Part shown: piece after piece, positions 12,612-29,883 of the stretch
Layout of the letters: each line of letters opens with the position of its first letter
How positions within the stretch are numbered: position 1 is the first letter of the stretch
Assembly (NCBI GenBank): GCA_947624505.1
Contig: CANQKO010000008.1
Location: 1-43,148, forward strand
Direction of reading: 5' to 3'
Source of the DNA: an uncultured Bacilli bacterium
GTDB lineage: Bacteria > Bacillota_I > Bacilli_A > RF39 > UBA660
Length of the DNA: 43,148 nucleotides
Notes under the pieces: model-generated
The model's database searches: none
The model's input: the letters and a program-made list of their open reading frames with translations, nothing else
What the model was told of the DNA's origin: nothing
Position numbers and translations under genes: made by a program

Positions 12612-12640
12612 ATAAGTAGTGAAAGCGAGGGATGGATAAT

Positions 12641-12928
12641 ATGGAAACTATTTCAAATTCAACTAATTTAAATATTCGAATTGACAGTAATTTAAAAAAA
12701 GAGGCTGAAGATTTATTTAAAAGATTGGGAATGAATATGACCAGTGCAATTAATGTTTTTTTAACTCAAAGCGTAAAAGAACAAGCTATACCTTTTGCAA
12801 TCAAAGAAAATAAACCAAATAAAAAATTACTTAAAGCTTTAAAAGAAGCTGATAAAATGACAAAACATCCTGAAAAGTATAAATGGTATGACAATGTTGA
12901 TGATTTAATGAAAGATTTAGAAAAGTAG
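12641..12928 (+). CDS. RelB/DinJ family antitoxin
   Basis: A 95-residue antitoxin. The N-terminal ribbon-helix-helix has the DNA-binding strand TNLNIRID (about 8-15) and two helices through GMNMTSAINVFLTQSVKEQ, typical of DinJ. The acidic, flexible C-terminal half should wrap the toxin. I chose the ATG at 12641, with GAGGG at 12627-12631 nine bases upstream. The ATG at 12632 touches that site. The toxin starts six bases after the stop. A palindrome at the promoter fits autoregulation by the DinJ-YafQ complex. Confidence 0.9.
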   Translation: METISNSTNLNIRIDSNLKKEAEDLFKRLGMNMTSAINVFLTQSVKEQAIPFAIKENKPNKKLLKALKEADKMTKHPEKYKWYDNVDDLMKDLEK

Positions 12929-12934
12929 GCTATT

Positions 12935-13216
12935 ATGAAATATCATTTAAGTTATACAGCAAAATATAAAAAACAATACAAAAAAATAATAAAACAAGGA
13001 AAGAATACTCAAAAATTAGGCCTTGTTATTGATAAATTACTTAATAACGAACCATTAGATGTAAAATACCATAATCATTCTTTAGAAGATAGTAAAGAAT
13101 TTAAAAATTGCTATGAATGTCATATAGAACCTGATTGGATATTAATTTACCAATATTTTGATGATAAACTAATTTTATTATTAGTAGAAACAGGTAGTCA
13201 TTCAGATTTATTTTAA
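12935..13216 (+). CDS. YafQ family ribosome-dependent mRNA interferase toxin
   Basis: This 93-residue RelE/YafQ-fold toxin cleaves mRNA in the ribosomal A site when freed from its antitoxin. The YafQ active-site set is complete: H48, H63, D67, W68, H89 and the C-terminal F93 (ending GSHSDLF). This matches E. coli YafQ H50/H63/D67/W68/H87/F91 in order and spacing. It therefore looks functional. Translation is probably coupled to the antitoxin, six bases upstream; the binding site of its own is weak. A terminator follows immediately. Confidence 0.92.
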   Translation: MKYHLSYTAKYKKQYKKIIKQGKNTQKLGLVIDKLLNNEPLDVKYHNHSLEDSKEFKNCYECHIEPDWILIYQYFDDKLILLLVETGSHSDLF

Positions 13217-19845: not shown

Positions 19846-21048
19846 ATGTTAAAAAGAGAACTTTATTTAGCCAAAATAAGAGGGTTTTATCATTCTAATT
19901 TAATTAAAGTTTTAGTAGGTATTAGAAGATGTGGTAAATCCGTAATTCTTGAGCAAATAGAAAATGAACTTAGAGAAAAAGAAAAAGTTGATGCAGAACA
20001 TATTATATTTATTAATTTTGAATACATTGAATATGAAGAATTATTAGATTATAAAAAACTTAATAATTATATTAAAGAAAGAATAAAAGATAATAAAACT
20101 TATTATATATTTTTAGATGAAATTCAAAATGTTGATAATTTTGAAAAGACAGTTAATTCTTTAAGAGCGTCCCTTAAAAATGTTAGTATCTTTTTAACGG
20201 GATCTAATAGTAAATTATTATCAGATGAATTATCAACCGTTTTATCGGGAAGATATGTTTTAATTAATATTAATCCTTTATCATATAAAGAATATATCTC
20301 TTTAACTAATAAAGATGGTTATGATTTAAATAATTTTTGGGATTATGCTAAATGGGGAGGACTTCCTAATAGATGTGAATTTACAAATGAAATAGATATT
20401 AAAAATTATTTAATTAGTGTTTATGATTCAATTGTTTTAAGAGATGTTGTTAAAAGACTTAATTTAAAAGATACCATCCTTTTTGATAAAATATTACAAT
20501 ATTTAATTGAAACGACAGGAAGAGAGTTTTCTAGTAAAAATATAATTGATTATTTAGCAAACAAAAATAAAAACGTTTCTAAAGAAACTTTATATACATA
20601 CATTGATGCTTTATGTAAAGCTTTAATTATAAAAAAAGTTTATCGTTATGATATTACAGGTAAAAATATCTTAAAAACATTAAATAAGTATTATGCAACC
20701 GATTTAGGAATTGCTCAAATAAAGAATAATAAACCTGAATTAGAAAAATATATTATCTTAGAAAATGTTGTTTATAATGAATTAATAAATCGGGAATATG
20801 AAGTATTTATTGGTAAAACAAGAAATGGCGAAGTTGACTTTATTGCTAAAAAAGATAGAGAAGTTAAATATATTCAAGTAACTTATGAAATGAATAATGA
20901 ACAAACAATGGAAAGAGAATTTGGGGCATTCAAAAGTATCTCTGATGATAATCCTAAATATATTATTTCTTTAGATAAAACCAATTTAACCAAAGATGGG
21001 ATAATCCATTTAAATCTGATAGATTTTTTATTAAAAGAAGACTTCTAA
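19846..21048 (+). CDS. AAA_14 / DUF4143 family ATPase, copy 2
   Basis: Same length (400 residues) and plan as the protein at 293-1495. P-loop GIRRCGKS lies near 25-32, Walker B IFLDE near 88-92, TGSNSK near 117-122, SGRY near 134-137, and the C-terminal GEVDFIAKKD of the nuclease-like DUF4143 fold. The two proteins share long stretches, such as YATDLG and the YNELI...GKT...GE-DF block, but differ at many positions. They are old paralogues rather than a recent duplication. It is monocistronic, with its own promoter, AGAGGTGAC site and strong terminator. The function of the family is not established; a defence or selfish-element role is often suspected because copies are scattered and variable. 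Confidence 0.88.
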   Translation: MLKRELYLAKIRGFYHSNLIKVLVGIRRCGKSVILEQIENELREKEKVDAEHIIFINFEYIEYEELLDYKKLNNYIKERIKDNKTYYIFLDEIQNVDNFEKTVNSLRASLKNVSIFLTGSNSKLLSDELSTVLSGRYVLININPLSYKEYISLTNKDGYDLNNFWDYAKWGGLPNRCEFTNEIDIKNYLISVYDSIVLRDVVKRLNLKDTILFDKILQYLIETTGREFSSKNIIDYLANKNKNVSKETLYTYIDALCKALIIKKVYRYDITGKNILKTLNKYYATDLGIAQIKNNKPELEKYIILENVVYNELINREYEVFIGKTRNGEVDFIAKKDREVKYIQVTYEMNNEQTMEREFGAFKSISDDNPKYIISLDKTNLTKDGIIHLNLIDFLLKEDF

Positions 21049-25293: not shown

Positions 25294-25851
25294 ATGACAA
25301 TTAGACTAGCAGCACCACTACAAAGCGATAGTGTTGTTGATGGTTTTGGTGTAAGGACAGTTATTTGGACGCAAGGATGCTCCCATAATTGTCCTTTTTG
25401 TCAAAATCCCCAAACACACGATTTTCAAGGTGGATGCTCATATGATGTAGAAGAAATAAAAAAAGAATTAAAAGATTTAAAGAATCAAGATGGTATAACT
25501 TTAAGTGGAGGAGATCCATTATACCAAATTGATGCTGTATTAGAAATAGCTAAATATGCTAAAAGTATTAATTTAAATGTTTGGTGCTATACAGGCTTTA
25601 CTTATGAAGAAATAATTAACTTAGGCAAAAAAAATCCTAAATATTTAGAATTATTAAATTATTTAGATGTTTTAGTTGATGGCTTATTTATTAATGAATT
25701 AAAAGATTTAAATCTTCTTTTTAGAGGGTCATCTAATCAAAGACTTATTGATGTACCTAAAACTTTAAAATATAAAAAAATCGTATTAATACCAGAAACT
25801 GATGGTATTATGGAAAAATATATGGAAAAGAAAGAAAAAGTGTTTATTTGA
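25294..25851 (+). CDS. nrdG: Anaerobic ribonucleotide reductase activating protein
   Basis: The radical-SAM activase that installs the glycyl radical on the class III reductase. The 185-residue protein has FGVRTVIWTQGCSHNCPFCQ with the cluster cysteines C29, C33 and C36 (CxxxCxxC), the SAM-binding SGGDPL (71-76) and LDVLVDGLF late in the chain. Size and motifs are typical for NrdG. GGGAG precedes the ATG. It is the third gene of the operon after nrdD and the small radical-domain gene, and ends at TGA inside a terminator. Confidence 0.94.
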   Translation: MTIRLAAPLQSDSVVDGFGVRTVIWTQGCSHNCPFCQNPQTHDFQGGCSYDVEEIKKELKDLKNQDGITLSGGDPLYQIDAVLEIAKYAKSINLNVWCYTGFTYEEIINLGKKNPKYLELLNYLDVLVDGLFINELKDLNLLFRGSSNQRLIDVPKTLKYKKIVLIPETDGIMEKYMEKKEKVFI

Positions 25852-25865
25852 ACGCTTTTTCTTTT
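25831..25865 (+). terminator. Terminator of the nrdD operon
   Basis: A 14-bp stem with one G-U pair (25831-25844 against 25851-25864) and a 6-nt loop. The T-rich 3' arm itself supplies the U tract. Confidence 0.8.
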
Positions 25866-25880
25866 GAGAAAATATTTTTA

Positions 25881-26072
25881 TTATTTATTTTTTATGTAAT
25901 CTAAAATATCTTTATCTTTAATTTCTAATGCTTTAACTAATTTTCTAAATGTATCAATTGATGGCTTTTTTTCTTCATTCTCAATTCTTTGAATGGTTCT
26001 CGTATCTAAATTAGTTAATTCTGCTAAATATTCTTGGGTATATTTCTTTAGTTTTCGGTATTCTTTAAACAT
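25881..26072 (-). CDS. Small Xre-family HTH regulator
   Basis: A 63-residue protein made up of a single Cro/CI-type helix-turn-helix domain: LKKYTQEYLAELTNLDTRTI followed by QRIENEEKKPS. I chose the ATG at 26072, with AGGTGA five bases upstream; an in-frame GTG at 26081 overlaps that site. It is divergent from a large surface protein gene, and the 140 bp between them holds four copies of one 15-bp operator. Two of these overlap its own promoter (TTGGAA 26117-26112, 17 bp, CATAAT 26094-26089). Self-repression plus control of the surface gene is the likely role; no ligand or cofactor domain is present. Confidence 0.85.
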   Translation of the reverse strand: MFKEYRKLKKYTQEYLAELTNLDTRTIQRIENEEKKPSIDTFRKLVKALEIKDKDILDYIKNK

Positions 26073-26083
26073 TATTCTCACCT

Positions 26084-26193
26084 ACGGCAATTATGTCATA
26101 ATTGTATTTTCTTTCCAACGGCATTAAAGTCGTGTTTTTATCTTGACATTTATGCCGTGTTATGATAATTTATAAATATGACAATTGTGCCGT
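26084..26193. promoter_or_regulatory. Four-copy 15-bp operator between Xre gene and surface-protein gene
   Basis: Sites, written in one orientation: TGACATAATTGCCGT (26098-26084, minus), CGACTTTAATGCCGT (26132-26118, minus), TGACATTTATGCCGT (26144-26158, plus), TGACAATTGTGCCGT (26179-26193, plus). The consensus is YGAC, five A/T-rich bases, TGCCGT. The third contains the -35 TTGACA (26143-26148) of the surface gene, whose -10 is near 26166. The first overlaps the -10 and start region of the regulator promoter. The GC-rich TGCCGT half stands out in this genome. Confidence 0.85.
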
Positions 26194-26212
26194 AAGGCTA
26201 GGAGATAAGAAT

Positions 26213-28321
26213 ATGAAAAAGAAATTAATAATTATTATATCAATAGTAATATTAACAATAATAAATGTATTTATAGTATTTAAAAAAGATGCTAGTATAG
26301 TAGAAAAGAATAAAGTAAATAAAATAGAAAGAAAAGAATTTAGTATATATAAAGAACAAACTTTAGGAGGAAAGGATTGGGAATTATCTACTGATACAAC
26401 ATTTCCTACAAGTGGTTATCTATTAAATAATGAACAAAGTAAATGTTATGGGTATAATAAAGAACCAATAACACCAATACCTGTGAAACAAGAATTAACA
26501 AAAGGAAGTATAGATGGAAGAGTAACAATAGAAAGTAGTAAAACAATTTATTGTGAATTATATTTTGATATAGATAACAAAGAACCAGAAGTAAATAAAT
26601 TTAGTATAACCGGAAAGACCAGTAGTGGTACTTCATTAAATAATGGATTTACCTATCAAACAGATAATATACCATATACATTAGAATATGTTGATACAGA
26701 TGTAACTCAATATTGTATAAGTGATACAAGTGAATGTACAGAATGGAAAGAAATAAGTGAAAAAACAGATACATTAACCATAGATAATTCTGATGGAGAA
26801 AAAACAATGTATATATATTTAAAAGATAAAGCGAATAATGTATCAGTAACAACAAATAAATCAACAGCAAAGATAACAGTAGATCAAACAAAACCAGTAG
26901 TAAAAACTTTTAAATTAACAGGAAAAGCAGATGAAGGGCAACAATTAAGTGATAGTTCACAATATACCCATAAAGCAGGAATAACATATGATGCAACAAT
27001 AACAGAAAGTAATATAGATAGTTATTGTGTATATGAAGATAGTTGTAATTATCAAACAACAAGTAGTACAACATTAAATACAAGTTATACATTAAAAGAT
27101 ACAGAAGGAAGTCATAGTGTAAAAATAAGAGTAAAAGATAAAGCAGGGAATGAATCAGAAATAACAACTCAAAGTATAAAGTTAGATAAAACAAATCCGA
27201 CAGCAACAATAAAATCTAATAGTCAAGATACAAGTAGCATAACAGTAACAGTAGGATATGAAGGACAAGATTCAATAATAAAGAGACAATGTAGATTAGA
27301 TACTGATAGTACTTGGACAGATTCAAAACCAGATGGAAGTTGTACGATAAGTGATTTAAAAGATGGAAAAGAGTATACAATAAAAGGAAGAGTAAGAGAT
27401 GCATCAGGAAGATGGAATACAACTTATCCAAATGTTAGTGTAACAACGCAAAGTGCAAACTTTCAAGGTACAGGAAAGCAATTATTAGAAAGCAAACCAA
27501 AGGGGTTAAGTGGTGAACCGGACTGTCAAGGAATGTATAGATTTGTAGGAACAAAAGATGATGTAAATAATTATGTATGCTTTGGCTATACAAATATATC
27601 ACAGTGTAGCAGTGGAGCGAAAGATAATGAATACATATACCGAATTATTGGAATTAATTCAAATGGTGAAATAAAATTAATCAAAAATAAAACTTTATCG
27701 ACACCCCTCTTTTGGTACAGTACAAAAGAGACTGATTTCGAGGTTTACGAGATGTGGAACCATAGTACGGTATATGTTAAGATAAATGGTAGTGAATTTC
27801 TGACGGGCTTACCAGAAAGCTGGCAGAAGCAAGTTATAAGTTCTAGTTGGTCATCTGGCGCTTTAACTTTAGAGAATGTTAACGTTGTTGCCAGTGAGGT
27901 TTGTATGGCTGAAAGAAACTTGACGTCGATAGATGCAAAGGTAGGCTTGATGACGTTGAGCGATTACTATTATGCTAATGGTAACAAAAATTCAAATTGT
28001 TTTGGAAGTGGGGGATCACCTGCTTGTTCGGCGAACTGGATGTTTTTTCGGAACAATGGATGTTTGGAGACGGAAACTTATGAGTCTACTATGATTCAGG
28101 TTGAAGGTGTGGGGTCTTTGTATTTTATTTATGCAATTTCTTCGAACGGAGGTGTAGTTGAGGGACCACATTCGATGAATAAGGAGATGTCTGTTCGACC
28201 TGTTTTCTACCTTTCTCCGTCAACTTCGATTTCCTCTGGGAGGGGTACTTCTACGGATCCGTTTATTGTGGATTCTGGTGGTGGATGTAGTGGTTCTGGT
28301 CTTGAGCAGTGTGTTGAATAG
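26213..28321 (+). CDS. Composite surface protein: signal anchor, Ig-like repeats, DUF6273-like C-terminus
   Basis: A 702-residue exported protein. An N-terminal membrane segment (about 4-24) is followed by a linker, then three bacterial-Ig-like repeats starting near 125, 225 and 325. Each contains KDKAGN- or DQTKP-type turns and a cysteine pair. Residues 420-702 form a different domain: EPDCQGMYRFVGTKDD, WMFFRNNGCLE, then VRPVFYLSPS and TDPFIVD, the pattern of the DUF6273/C-lectin-like group. No LPXTG is present. From about 27695 (residue 494) the DNA changes from roughly 23% to 37-48% GC with different codon choice, so the C-terminal part looks like an imported or exchangeable cassette. The ATG at 26213 has AGGAG upstream. 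Four operators and the divergent Xre gene imply tight control. Confidence 0.75.
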   Translation: MKKKLIIIISIVILTIINVFIVFKKDASIVEKNKVNKIERKEFSIYKEQTLGGKDWELSTDTTFPTSGYLLNNEQSKCYGYNKEPITPIPVKQELTKGSIDGRVTIESSKTIYCELYFDIDNKEPEVNKFSITGKTSSGTSLNNGFTYQTDNIPYTLEYVDTDVTQYCISDTSECTEWKEISEKTDTLTIDNSDGEKTMYIYLKDKANNVSVTTNKSTAKITVDQTKPVVKTFKLTGKADEGQQLSDSSQYTHKAGITYDATITESNIDSYCVYEDSCNYQTTSSTTLNTSYTLKDTEGSHSVKIRVKDKAGNESEITTQSIKLDKTNPTATIKSNSQDTSSITVTVGYEGQDSIIKRQCRLDTDSTWTDSKPDGSCTISDLKDGKEYTIKGRVRDASGRWNTTYPNVSVTTQSANFQGTGKQLLESKPKGLSGEPDCQGMYRFVGTKDDVNNYVCFGYTNISQCSSGAKDNEYIYRIIGINSNGEIKLIKNKTLSTPLFWYSTKETDFEVYEMWNHSTVYVKINGSEFLTGLPESWQKQVISSSWSSGALTLENVNVVASEVCMAERNLTSIDAKVGLMTLSDYYYANGNKNSNCFGSGGSPACSANWMFFRNNGCLETETYESTMIQVEGVGSLYFIYAISSNGGVVEGPHSMNKEMSVRPVFYLSPSTSISSGRGTSTDPFIVDSGGGCSGSGLEQCVE

Positions 28322-28508
28322 GAGATTTCCGTTCTCTTTTATTTGATAAATAATGAGTGTATAGAATTTTTCGGAGCATTGTATGAATTAAATGTATGAA
28401 ATTATAGTGTAAAGAATGCATCGAGAAGGAAAACTCGTAAAAACCTCATAGACTTAACTCTTATGAGAGGGAATATTTCTCTCTCGTTTTATTTTGACTA
28501 ATAAAGAA
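28322..28508 (+). other. Non-coding downstream flank with several hairpins
   Basis: No gene here. CGAG/CTCG (28422-28437), CTCATA/TATGAG (28445-28467) and GAGAG/CTCTC (28465-28483, followed by a T-rich run) can each fold. The last two share bases and exclude each other, as in an attenuator. The last is a plausible terminator for the surface gene. Confidence 0.45.
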
Positions 28509-28538
28509 TTGCTTTTTTTTCATAAATAAGTATATAAT
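28509..28538 (+). promoter_or_regulatory. murD promoter
   Basis: TTGCTT (28509-28514), 18-bp spacer, TATAAT (28533-28538). It places the transcript start after the in-frame GTG at 28543, supporting the ATG at 28561 as the real start. Confidence 0.65.
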
Positions 28539-28560
28539 TTAAGTGAAAGAAAGTGATTAT

Positions 28561-29883
28561 ATGTTAGAAAATAAAAAAATACTAGTATTAGGATTAGGCA
28601 AAAGTGGGCTGGCAGTAATTAAATTACTTGCAGGTAAGAATAGTATTATCGCCAGTGATAAAAAGATGCCTACTGAAGAAATATTAGATGAATTTAAAAA
28701 ATTACAAGTTGAATTTATTTTAAGTGAAGATGCTACCGATATAATTGATAATAATATTGATTTAATAATTAAATCCCCGGGTATTGAACCATTTCATTTA
28801 GGTATTAAAAAGGCAAGAGAATTAAATATTAAAATAGTTAATGAAATGGAAGTTGCTTATCATTATTTACCGAAGAATGTTAAAATAATTGGTATTACTG
28901 GTTCCAATGGTAAAACTACTACTACAACAATGTTATTTGATTTATTAAAATTACATAATATAAGTGTTGTTTTAGGGGGTAATATTGGTTATCCTTTATG
29001 TGAAGTATTAAAAAGTATTAAAGAAGGTGATACTTTAGTTTTAGAAATATCTGATCATCAATTATATGATTTAATTGATTTTAAAACAGATATATCTATT
29101 CTTACTAATTTATGTCCAACACATCTAGATTATCATGGTAATTATGAAAATTATAAACAAGTTAAGAAAAAGATTTTTAATCATCATACTAAAAATGATA
29201 TAGCTATTATTAATGAAGAAAATATTGATTCCTTAGCTTTGACTAAAGATATTTTATCTAAAAAGGAATATTTTAATAGTAAAGATAATTATTATAATGA
29301 TGAAGGTATATATCTAGATAATGAATTAGTAATTAAATTAGATGATATAAAAATTAAAGGTAATCATAATTATGAAAATATTTTAGCTTGTTTACTTGCT
29401 TTAAAAGAATTTGCCTTTGATAAAGAAATAATTAAAAATTATTTAAGTAATTTTAAGGGAGTAGAACATCGTATTGAAATAGTAGATAGTAAAAGTAATA
29501 TTAATTTCTTTAATGATTCAAAAGCTACTAACCCAACTAGTACTTTAATTGCTTTAAAGACAATGAAAAAGAAAACGCATTTGATTTTAGGAGGTAAAGA
29601 AAGGAAACAAGACTTTAACGAATTAAATAAAGAAATGAGTATTGTTAAATGTATTTATGCAATTGGTGAAGTTACTGATCGTATTATGGATTATGCTAAT
29701 CAGAATAAGTTAAAATGTGTCAAGTGTTATACATTAAATAAAGCAATGGAAGAAATAAAGAAAAATGCTTTAGATGGGGAAAATGTCTTACTTTCTCCAG
29801 CATCTGCTTCTTGGGATCAATATGATAGATTTGAAACTAGAGGAGAAGAGTTTAAAAAATTAGTTGAAAAATTATATAATTAA
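28561..29883 (+). CDS. murD: UDP-N-acetylmuramoylalanine--D-glutamate ligase
   Basis: Adds D-glutamate to UDP-MurNAc-L-Ala in peptidoglycan synthesis. The 440-residue protein has the N-terminal LVLGLGKSGLA Rossmann loop, VKSPGI-like IIKSPGIEPF, the ATP loop ITGSNGKTTTTTM near 112-124, the Mur motifs CPTHLDYHGNYENY and FNDSKATNPTSTL, and C-terminal LLSPASASWDQYDRFETRG. All three domains are present and length is normal. The longer reading from GTG 28543 would start inside the leader. It stands alone with its own promoter. Confidence 0.96.
   Translation: MLENKKILVLGLGKSGLAVIKLLAGKNSIIASDKKMPTEEILDEFKKLQVEFILSEDATDIIDNNIDLIIKSPGIEPFHLGIKKARELNIKIVNEMEVAYHYLPKNVKIIGITGSNGKTTTTTMLFDLLKLHNISVVLGGNIGYPLCEVLKSIKEGDTLVLEISDHQLYDLIDFKTDISILTNLCPTHLDYHGNYENYKQVKKKIFNHHTKNDIAIINEENIDSLALTKDILSKKEYFNSKDNYYNDEGIYLDNELVIKLDDIKIKGNHNYENILACLLALKEFAFDKEIIKNYLSNFKGVEHRIEIVDSKSNINFFNDSKATNPTSTLIALKTMKKKTHLILGGKERKQDFNELNKEMSIVKCIYAIGEVTDRIMDYANQNKLKCVKCYTLNKAMEEIKKNALDGENVLLSPASASWDQYDRFETRGEEFKKLVEKLYN

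Follow-up and report, generated by a model that had tools for sequence, protein, structure and literature searches.

A minimal Xre regulator with repeated palindromic operator-like sites as one of about twenty regulator–surface protein modules in an uncultured Bacilli genome

Introduction

What do four copies of one short motif do between a very small regulator gene and a divergently transcribed surface-protein gene? In the 43,148-nucleotide stretch of DNA analysed here (the window), the motif YGAC-N5-TGCCGT is repeated within a 110-bp intergenic stretch. The initial annotation read the copies as four 15-bp operators, two on each strand, arranged symmetrically and overlapping the −35 of the surface gene and the start region of the regulator, and it asked whether the motif also lies at other surface genes. 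Large variable surface-protein families occur in Mycoplasma, Neisseria, Borrelia and Bacteroides, and the only control mechanisms we know of for such families are DNA rearrangement, repeat tracts, methylation and shared regulators.

Results

A palindromic motif confined to one locus

The four exact copies lie at 26084–26098 (−), 26118–26132 (−), 26144–26158 (+) and 26179–26193 (+). With up to one mismatch, the window (25.6% G+C) holds five matches, compared with 0.37 expected from shuffles. Genome-wide tests were pattern and protein searches of a draft assembly of 1,230,647 bases, in which the only exact matches are the four in the window; the reversed control pattern has no exact match in the same 1.23 Mb. 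Allowing one mismatch adds 15 genomic places, compared with 34 for the reversed control; outside this locus the motif thus shows no enrichment. The four copies claimed at the outset are thus exact and unique to this locus, and the whole-genome search shows that the motif is not frequent at random sites.

The near-symmetric layout also stands, with centre-to-centre distances of 34, 25 and 35 bp. The repeated unit itself is genuine, but it is better described as a 16-bp imperfect palindrome than as a 15-bp operator: each copy fits ACGGCA-N4-TGCCGT (also written ACGGC-N6-GCCGT) with 2 or 3 mismatches, a form typical of an Xre dimer, and the palindrome is perfect in some relatives, where O2 reads ACGGCAGATATGCCGT (G003) or ACGGCTAAAAAGCCGT (G020). 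Two sites do read on each strand, but strand here only marks the stronger half-site of a degenerate palindrome, and the strand pattern was seen because the palindrome was read through a one-sided consensus. The features of the intergenic region and its flanking genes are as follows.

25881..26072, minus strand: xre, a 63-aa single-domain HTH_3 regulator, ATG at 26072 (a GTG at 26081 would give 66 aa)
26084..26099, minus strand: putative operator O1, just upstream of the xre Shine-Dalgarno sequence; TGACATAATTGCCGT in 9/10 orthologous loci
26090..26118, minus strand: candidate xre promoter TTGGAA-N17-CATAAT; its −10 falls within O1 and its −35 touches O2
26118..26133, minus strand: putative operator O2, a perfect palindrome in some orthologues
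26143..26158, plus strand: putative operator O3, left half on the −35 TTGACA, remainder in the promoter spacer
26143..26171, plus strand: surface-gene promoter TTGACA-N17-TAATTT, predicted from sequence
26178..26193, plus strand: putative operator O4, spanning the predicted +1 to +16 of the surface-gene transcript and conserved among orthologues
26213..28321, plus strand: surface protein of 702 aa with an N-terminal membrane anchor, tandem Ig-like domains (Pfam Big_13) and a variable C-terminal domain

The overlap with the surface-gene −35 and the regulator start region is as described: the TGAC of O3 forms part of the −35 TTGACA. For xre, an alternative −10 (TACAAT) is present at 26101–26106. 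In an alignment of orthologous regions from ten genomes, O1, O2 and O4 are conserved next to the regulator, lying at about +11, +45 and +104 from the xre start codon; a complete O3 is limited to the window genome and G034, its closest relative. Three of the four proposed sites are therefore conserved in orthologues and the fourth is lineage-specific. The TTGAC of the surface promoter is kept in 10/10 orthologous loci.

The regulator and its genomic setting

The regulator matches PF01381 (HTH_3) with E=2.7e-14 and 53.3 bits (cut-off 23), which identifies a Cro/C1-type helix-turn-helix domain and bears out its description as a single HTH domain of 63 aa; its orthologues begin at the same ATG. 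Clade-1 Xre proteins, 69–98% identical, are encoded in 10 of 38 genus genomes, and the motif is present at the xre promoter in all ten. Across the 38 genomes the exact motif has 24 matches, 19 beside a clade-1 Xre and five elsewhere. Because the sites are unique to this locus in the window genome, stand beside every clade-1 orthologue and overlap both promoters, the proposal that they behave as operators of the adjacent Xre is well supported at the sequence level; it is the use of the same motif by other surface genes that was not borne out. The closest solved chains to the 63-aa protein are restriction–modification (R-M) controller (C) proteins, which match weakly (E 0.003–0.008). A duplicate clade-1 regulator in one genome (L075, G020:C11:32854-33039) represents a decayed module: its reading frame has two internal stops, and no operators can be recognised.

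The module sits in a chromosomal position between nrdG and murD, with no phage genes nearby. The neighbours of xre are nrdG, the surface gene and murD, and no R-M genes (endonuclease or methyltransferase) lie beside it. In G031 and G060, nrdG and murD are adjacent without the module (interval 25851–28561), which would have been either inserted here or lost in those two genomes. Together with the G034 orthologue, which is found at another location, this indicates that modules change location. The structure model of residues 1–415 of the surface protein resembles adhesin Ig-like domains such as those of SiiE; over the C-terminal domain the model is poor (mean pLDDT 50.7) and of low confidence. 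The organism is probably from the rabbit gut, judged by named relatives from samples labelled Lapin.

Elsewhere in the window, a gene pair at 12632–13216 resembles a RelB/DinJ antitoxin with a YafQ-type toxin, and 293–1495 and 19846–21048 encode paralogous 400-aa proteins with an AAA ATPase-like part and a nuclease-like C-terminus, all judged by eye. In several genus members (L072–L075, L080–L082, L084–L086) the regulated unit is an operon whose first product is a small exported protein; by eye, the N-terminus of this protein (THAYYNYE, TYAYF) looks similar to SipW-type signal peptides.

A family of about twenty modules

The surface-protein family has 37 matches in the window genome, corresponding to about 30 paralogues. 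Twenty of these, all with the 5′ end assembled, each have a private small DNA-binding regulator, encoded divergently 93–166 bp upstream. These regulators comprise single HTH_3 proteins, tandem-HTH proteins (148–154 aa), three ribbon-helix-helix proteins and further Xre types; of the ribbon-helix-helix proteins, two are supported by Pfam and the third (C10) was judged by eye. In 15 of the 20 intergenic regions a repeated operator exceeds every one of 60 dinucleotide shuffles; C12a, C2a, C2b, C2c and C1c are the five without a significant one in this test. Palindromes beat all 40 shuffles in ten modules. The operators differ between modules (for example ATAACC-N4-GGTTAT, TACTCAT-N3-ATGAGTA and AGACA-N5-TGTCT). 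The motif of the window is thus absent from other surface genes, which carry different operators, and a single motif common to all of them is ruled out. With one exception, C1c, each operator profile gives a far higher score on its home module than on the others; the profiles were built from, and evaluated on, one and the same set of G000 regions.

The geometry of the modules recurs. The first and second sites are 25 bp apart in nine modules; surface promoters have the form TTGAC[A/T]-N17-TATAAT-like, with a 17-bp spacer in 16 of the genome's own 20 and 43 of 44 other surface promoters, and several modules hold an operator inside that spacer. None of the 20 intergenic regions contains GATC, which rules out a Dam-type methylation switch there.

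Comparison across the genus

The same module layout is found in G034, G003, G006, G031 and G029. When window-genome profiles were scanned over 41 regions of other genomes, the cognate profile ranked first of 20 in 32/32 cases with a regulator at least 60% identical and in 1/9 below 60%. Part of the former result reflects shared ancestry, since the orthologous intergenic regions are conserved overall (83.8% identity at operator positions, 75.5% at others). For more distant genus members, an automatic palindrome search of the clade-2 and clade-3 modules gave mostly non-significant results. In a nearest-neighbour sample that left out clade-1 relatives, the nearest regulator was in another genome for 45 of 51 regulators, whereas the nearest surface N-terminus was in the same genome for 47 of 52. 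This opposition suggests that the surface genes evolve in concert, under regulator–operator pairs that would themselves be stable.

Poly-G members and the 3′ element

Four family members without a regulator (C12b, C13, C33 and C53; loci L176, L180, L191 and L196) carry a G9–10 tract just after the start. All four are out of frame as assembled, although for C33, where a contig end hides the start codon, the frame was deduced from the matching tract length. G034 contains two more poly-G members; in G031 one member carries an in-frame tract, and in G013 the promoter spacer of one member holds G9. Such tracts are classic slipped-strand sites and lend support to the idea of variable expression in the family. 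Nowhere in the window does a G or C run reach six nucleotides, so that a poly-G contingency tract in its own surface gene is ruled out.

Two further features follow the surface gene.

28422..28457, plus strand: invariant 36-nt 3′ element CGAGAAGGAAAACTCGTAAAAACCTCATAGACTTAA, at 24 genome loci without mismatch
28463..28487, plus strand: terminator-like hairpin, after the 36-nt element

The element stands after the surface genes examined and before terminator-like hairpins, and is also present in G034, G060, G029 and G003. An Rfam search with the stretch holding the window's copy gave no match. Its core consists of a hairpin with the loop AAGGNAAA and, after the hairpin, TNAAAACC. This core is found again in phages (IMG/VR loci L327, L339, L329 and others), often between promoter-like sequence and a start codon. 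The stems vary yet stay paired: 37 of 83 matches are fully paired over three flanking pairs, against a chance of about 1/64. The hairpin core looks like an undescribed RNA element.

Discussion

The reading that probably accounts best for these data is that the four sites are operators for an Xre dimer, and that the locus is one of about twenty private regulator–surface protein modules whose operators are mostly module-specific. The sites, their symmetry, uniqueness and conservation, the repertoire, the promoter geometry and the poly-G alternative are read from sequence, and from these we infer binding, repression and autoregulation. On the simplest reading, an Xre dimer bound at O3 (−35 and spacer) and O4 (transcript start) would block the strong divergent surface promoter. 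Xre would also control its own weak promoter, with O1 over the candidate −10 and O2 next to the candidate −35. As the operators differ from module to module, the silencing or release of one surface gene could proceed independently of the rest. A regulator and its operator may together form a stable address, at the same time as the coding sequences of the surface proteins become homogenised within a species.

How such modules would be released is a separate matter. If the regulators were conventional signal-responsive repressors, the modules would be environmentally controlled rather than stochastic, and private regulators would equally suit independent induction by different cues. We consider this unlikely, since the regulators consist of either one domain of 61–95 aa or two HTH domains fused together and show no sign of a ligand domain, and the members without a regulator carry poly-G tracts, a mark of random switching. 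A mainly activating or dual role of the regulators at the surface genes seems quite improbable: O2 is centred at about −52 from the predicted surface start, and controller proteins, the closest solved relatives of Xre, both activate and repress (PMC3115060), but the surface promoters already come close to consensus, their spacers being 17 bp long, and the operators within the spacer and at the beginning of the transcript occupy polymerase-blocking positions.

Bacteria commonly carry small, divergently transcribed Xre genes that have palindromic operators. The locus could on that account be an ordinary autoregulated Xre with a co-regulated neighbour, the other modules being unrelated copies of a common layout that serve no coordinated purpose; this is improbable, as the same surface family stands opposite several unrelated regulator types with conserved geometry in several species. 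An origin as a remnant of a phage immunity region would explain lambda-like repeated operators around divergent promoters, but the nrdG/murD setting is chromosomal, phage genes are absent nearby and no relative of Xre was found among viral contigs, which makes such an origin extremely improbable. In layout, the locus is closer to lambda or R-M controller circuits than to a leftover of a phage.

For the reading as private repressor modules, phase switching or bistability appears plausible from the operator geometry and the poly-G paralogues. Lambda CI activates its own promoter from about −42. The candidate xre promoter would likewise place O2 at about −42, so that positive and negative feedback could combine to support two states; this idea depends on the candidate promoter, which has an alternative −10 nearby. 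A purely repressing regulator, acting on itself and its target, would give graded control and not two states. The most speculative step is that release is stochastic, in which case cells of one clone would display different sets of surface proteins. We hold only tentatively, and at less than even confidence, the wider proposal of about twenty mutually orthogonal one-regulator-one-antigen switches, built on unrelated folds, that would produce independent surface combinations without DNA rearrangement and keep fixed addresses across species while the antigens are overwritten.

In the literature searched, mostly without subscription papers, we found no description of a family with one private repressor per surface gene. 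Nevertheless, known systems share parts of this arrangement. Lambda operators are repeated palindromes of about 16 bp over divergent promoters, and the lambda CI/Cro operator regions are similar to the locus in this respect; in contrast, the arrangement here is chromosomal, is repeated around the genome and has a single regulator opposite the surface gene, with no opposing second repressor gene of the phage CI/Cro type. Poly-G contingency loci are represented by those family members with G9–10 in the coding start or the spacer, whereas the window's surface gene has a regulator instead of a tract. R-M controller proteins such as C.Esp1396I are also small single-domain HTH proteins, and they control themselves and a neighbour through several operators, as is proposed here for Xre; C.Esp1396I binds three (PMC3758141), and controller proteins are described as a cooperative switch with activation and repression (PMC3115060). 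Here, however, the target is a surface protein, R-M genes are lacking beside the regulator, and about twenty modules with different operators run in parallel. Mycoplasma gallisepticum vlhA is likewise a large surface-antigen family in a small AT-rich genome, but its promoters carry GAA repeats and are thought to be active with 12 repeats (PMC6258824), whereas each module gene here has its own regulator. In the Bacteroides UpxY/UpxZ capsule system each locus likewise supplies a regulator for the operon it belongs to (PMC7315117). UpxY works by antitermination and the targets of UpxZ are other loci, in contrast to the DNA-binding regulators with promoter operators seen here. Compared with these systems, a minimal gut genome appears to give surface genes a repressor and an operator each, which makes combinatorial surface variation run by transcription factors alone a testable idea and, if true, would provide a natural library of orthogonal repressors useful to synthetic biology.
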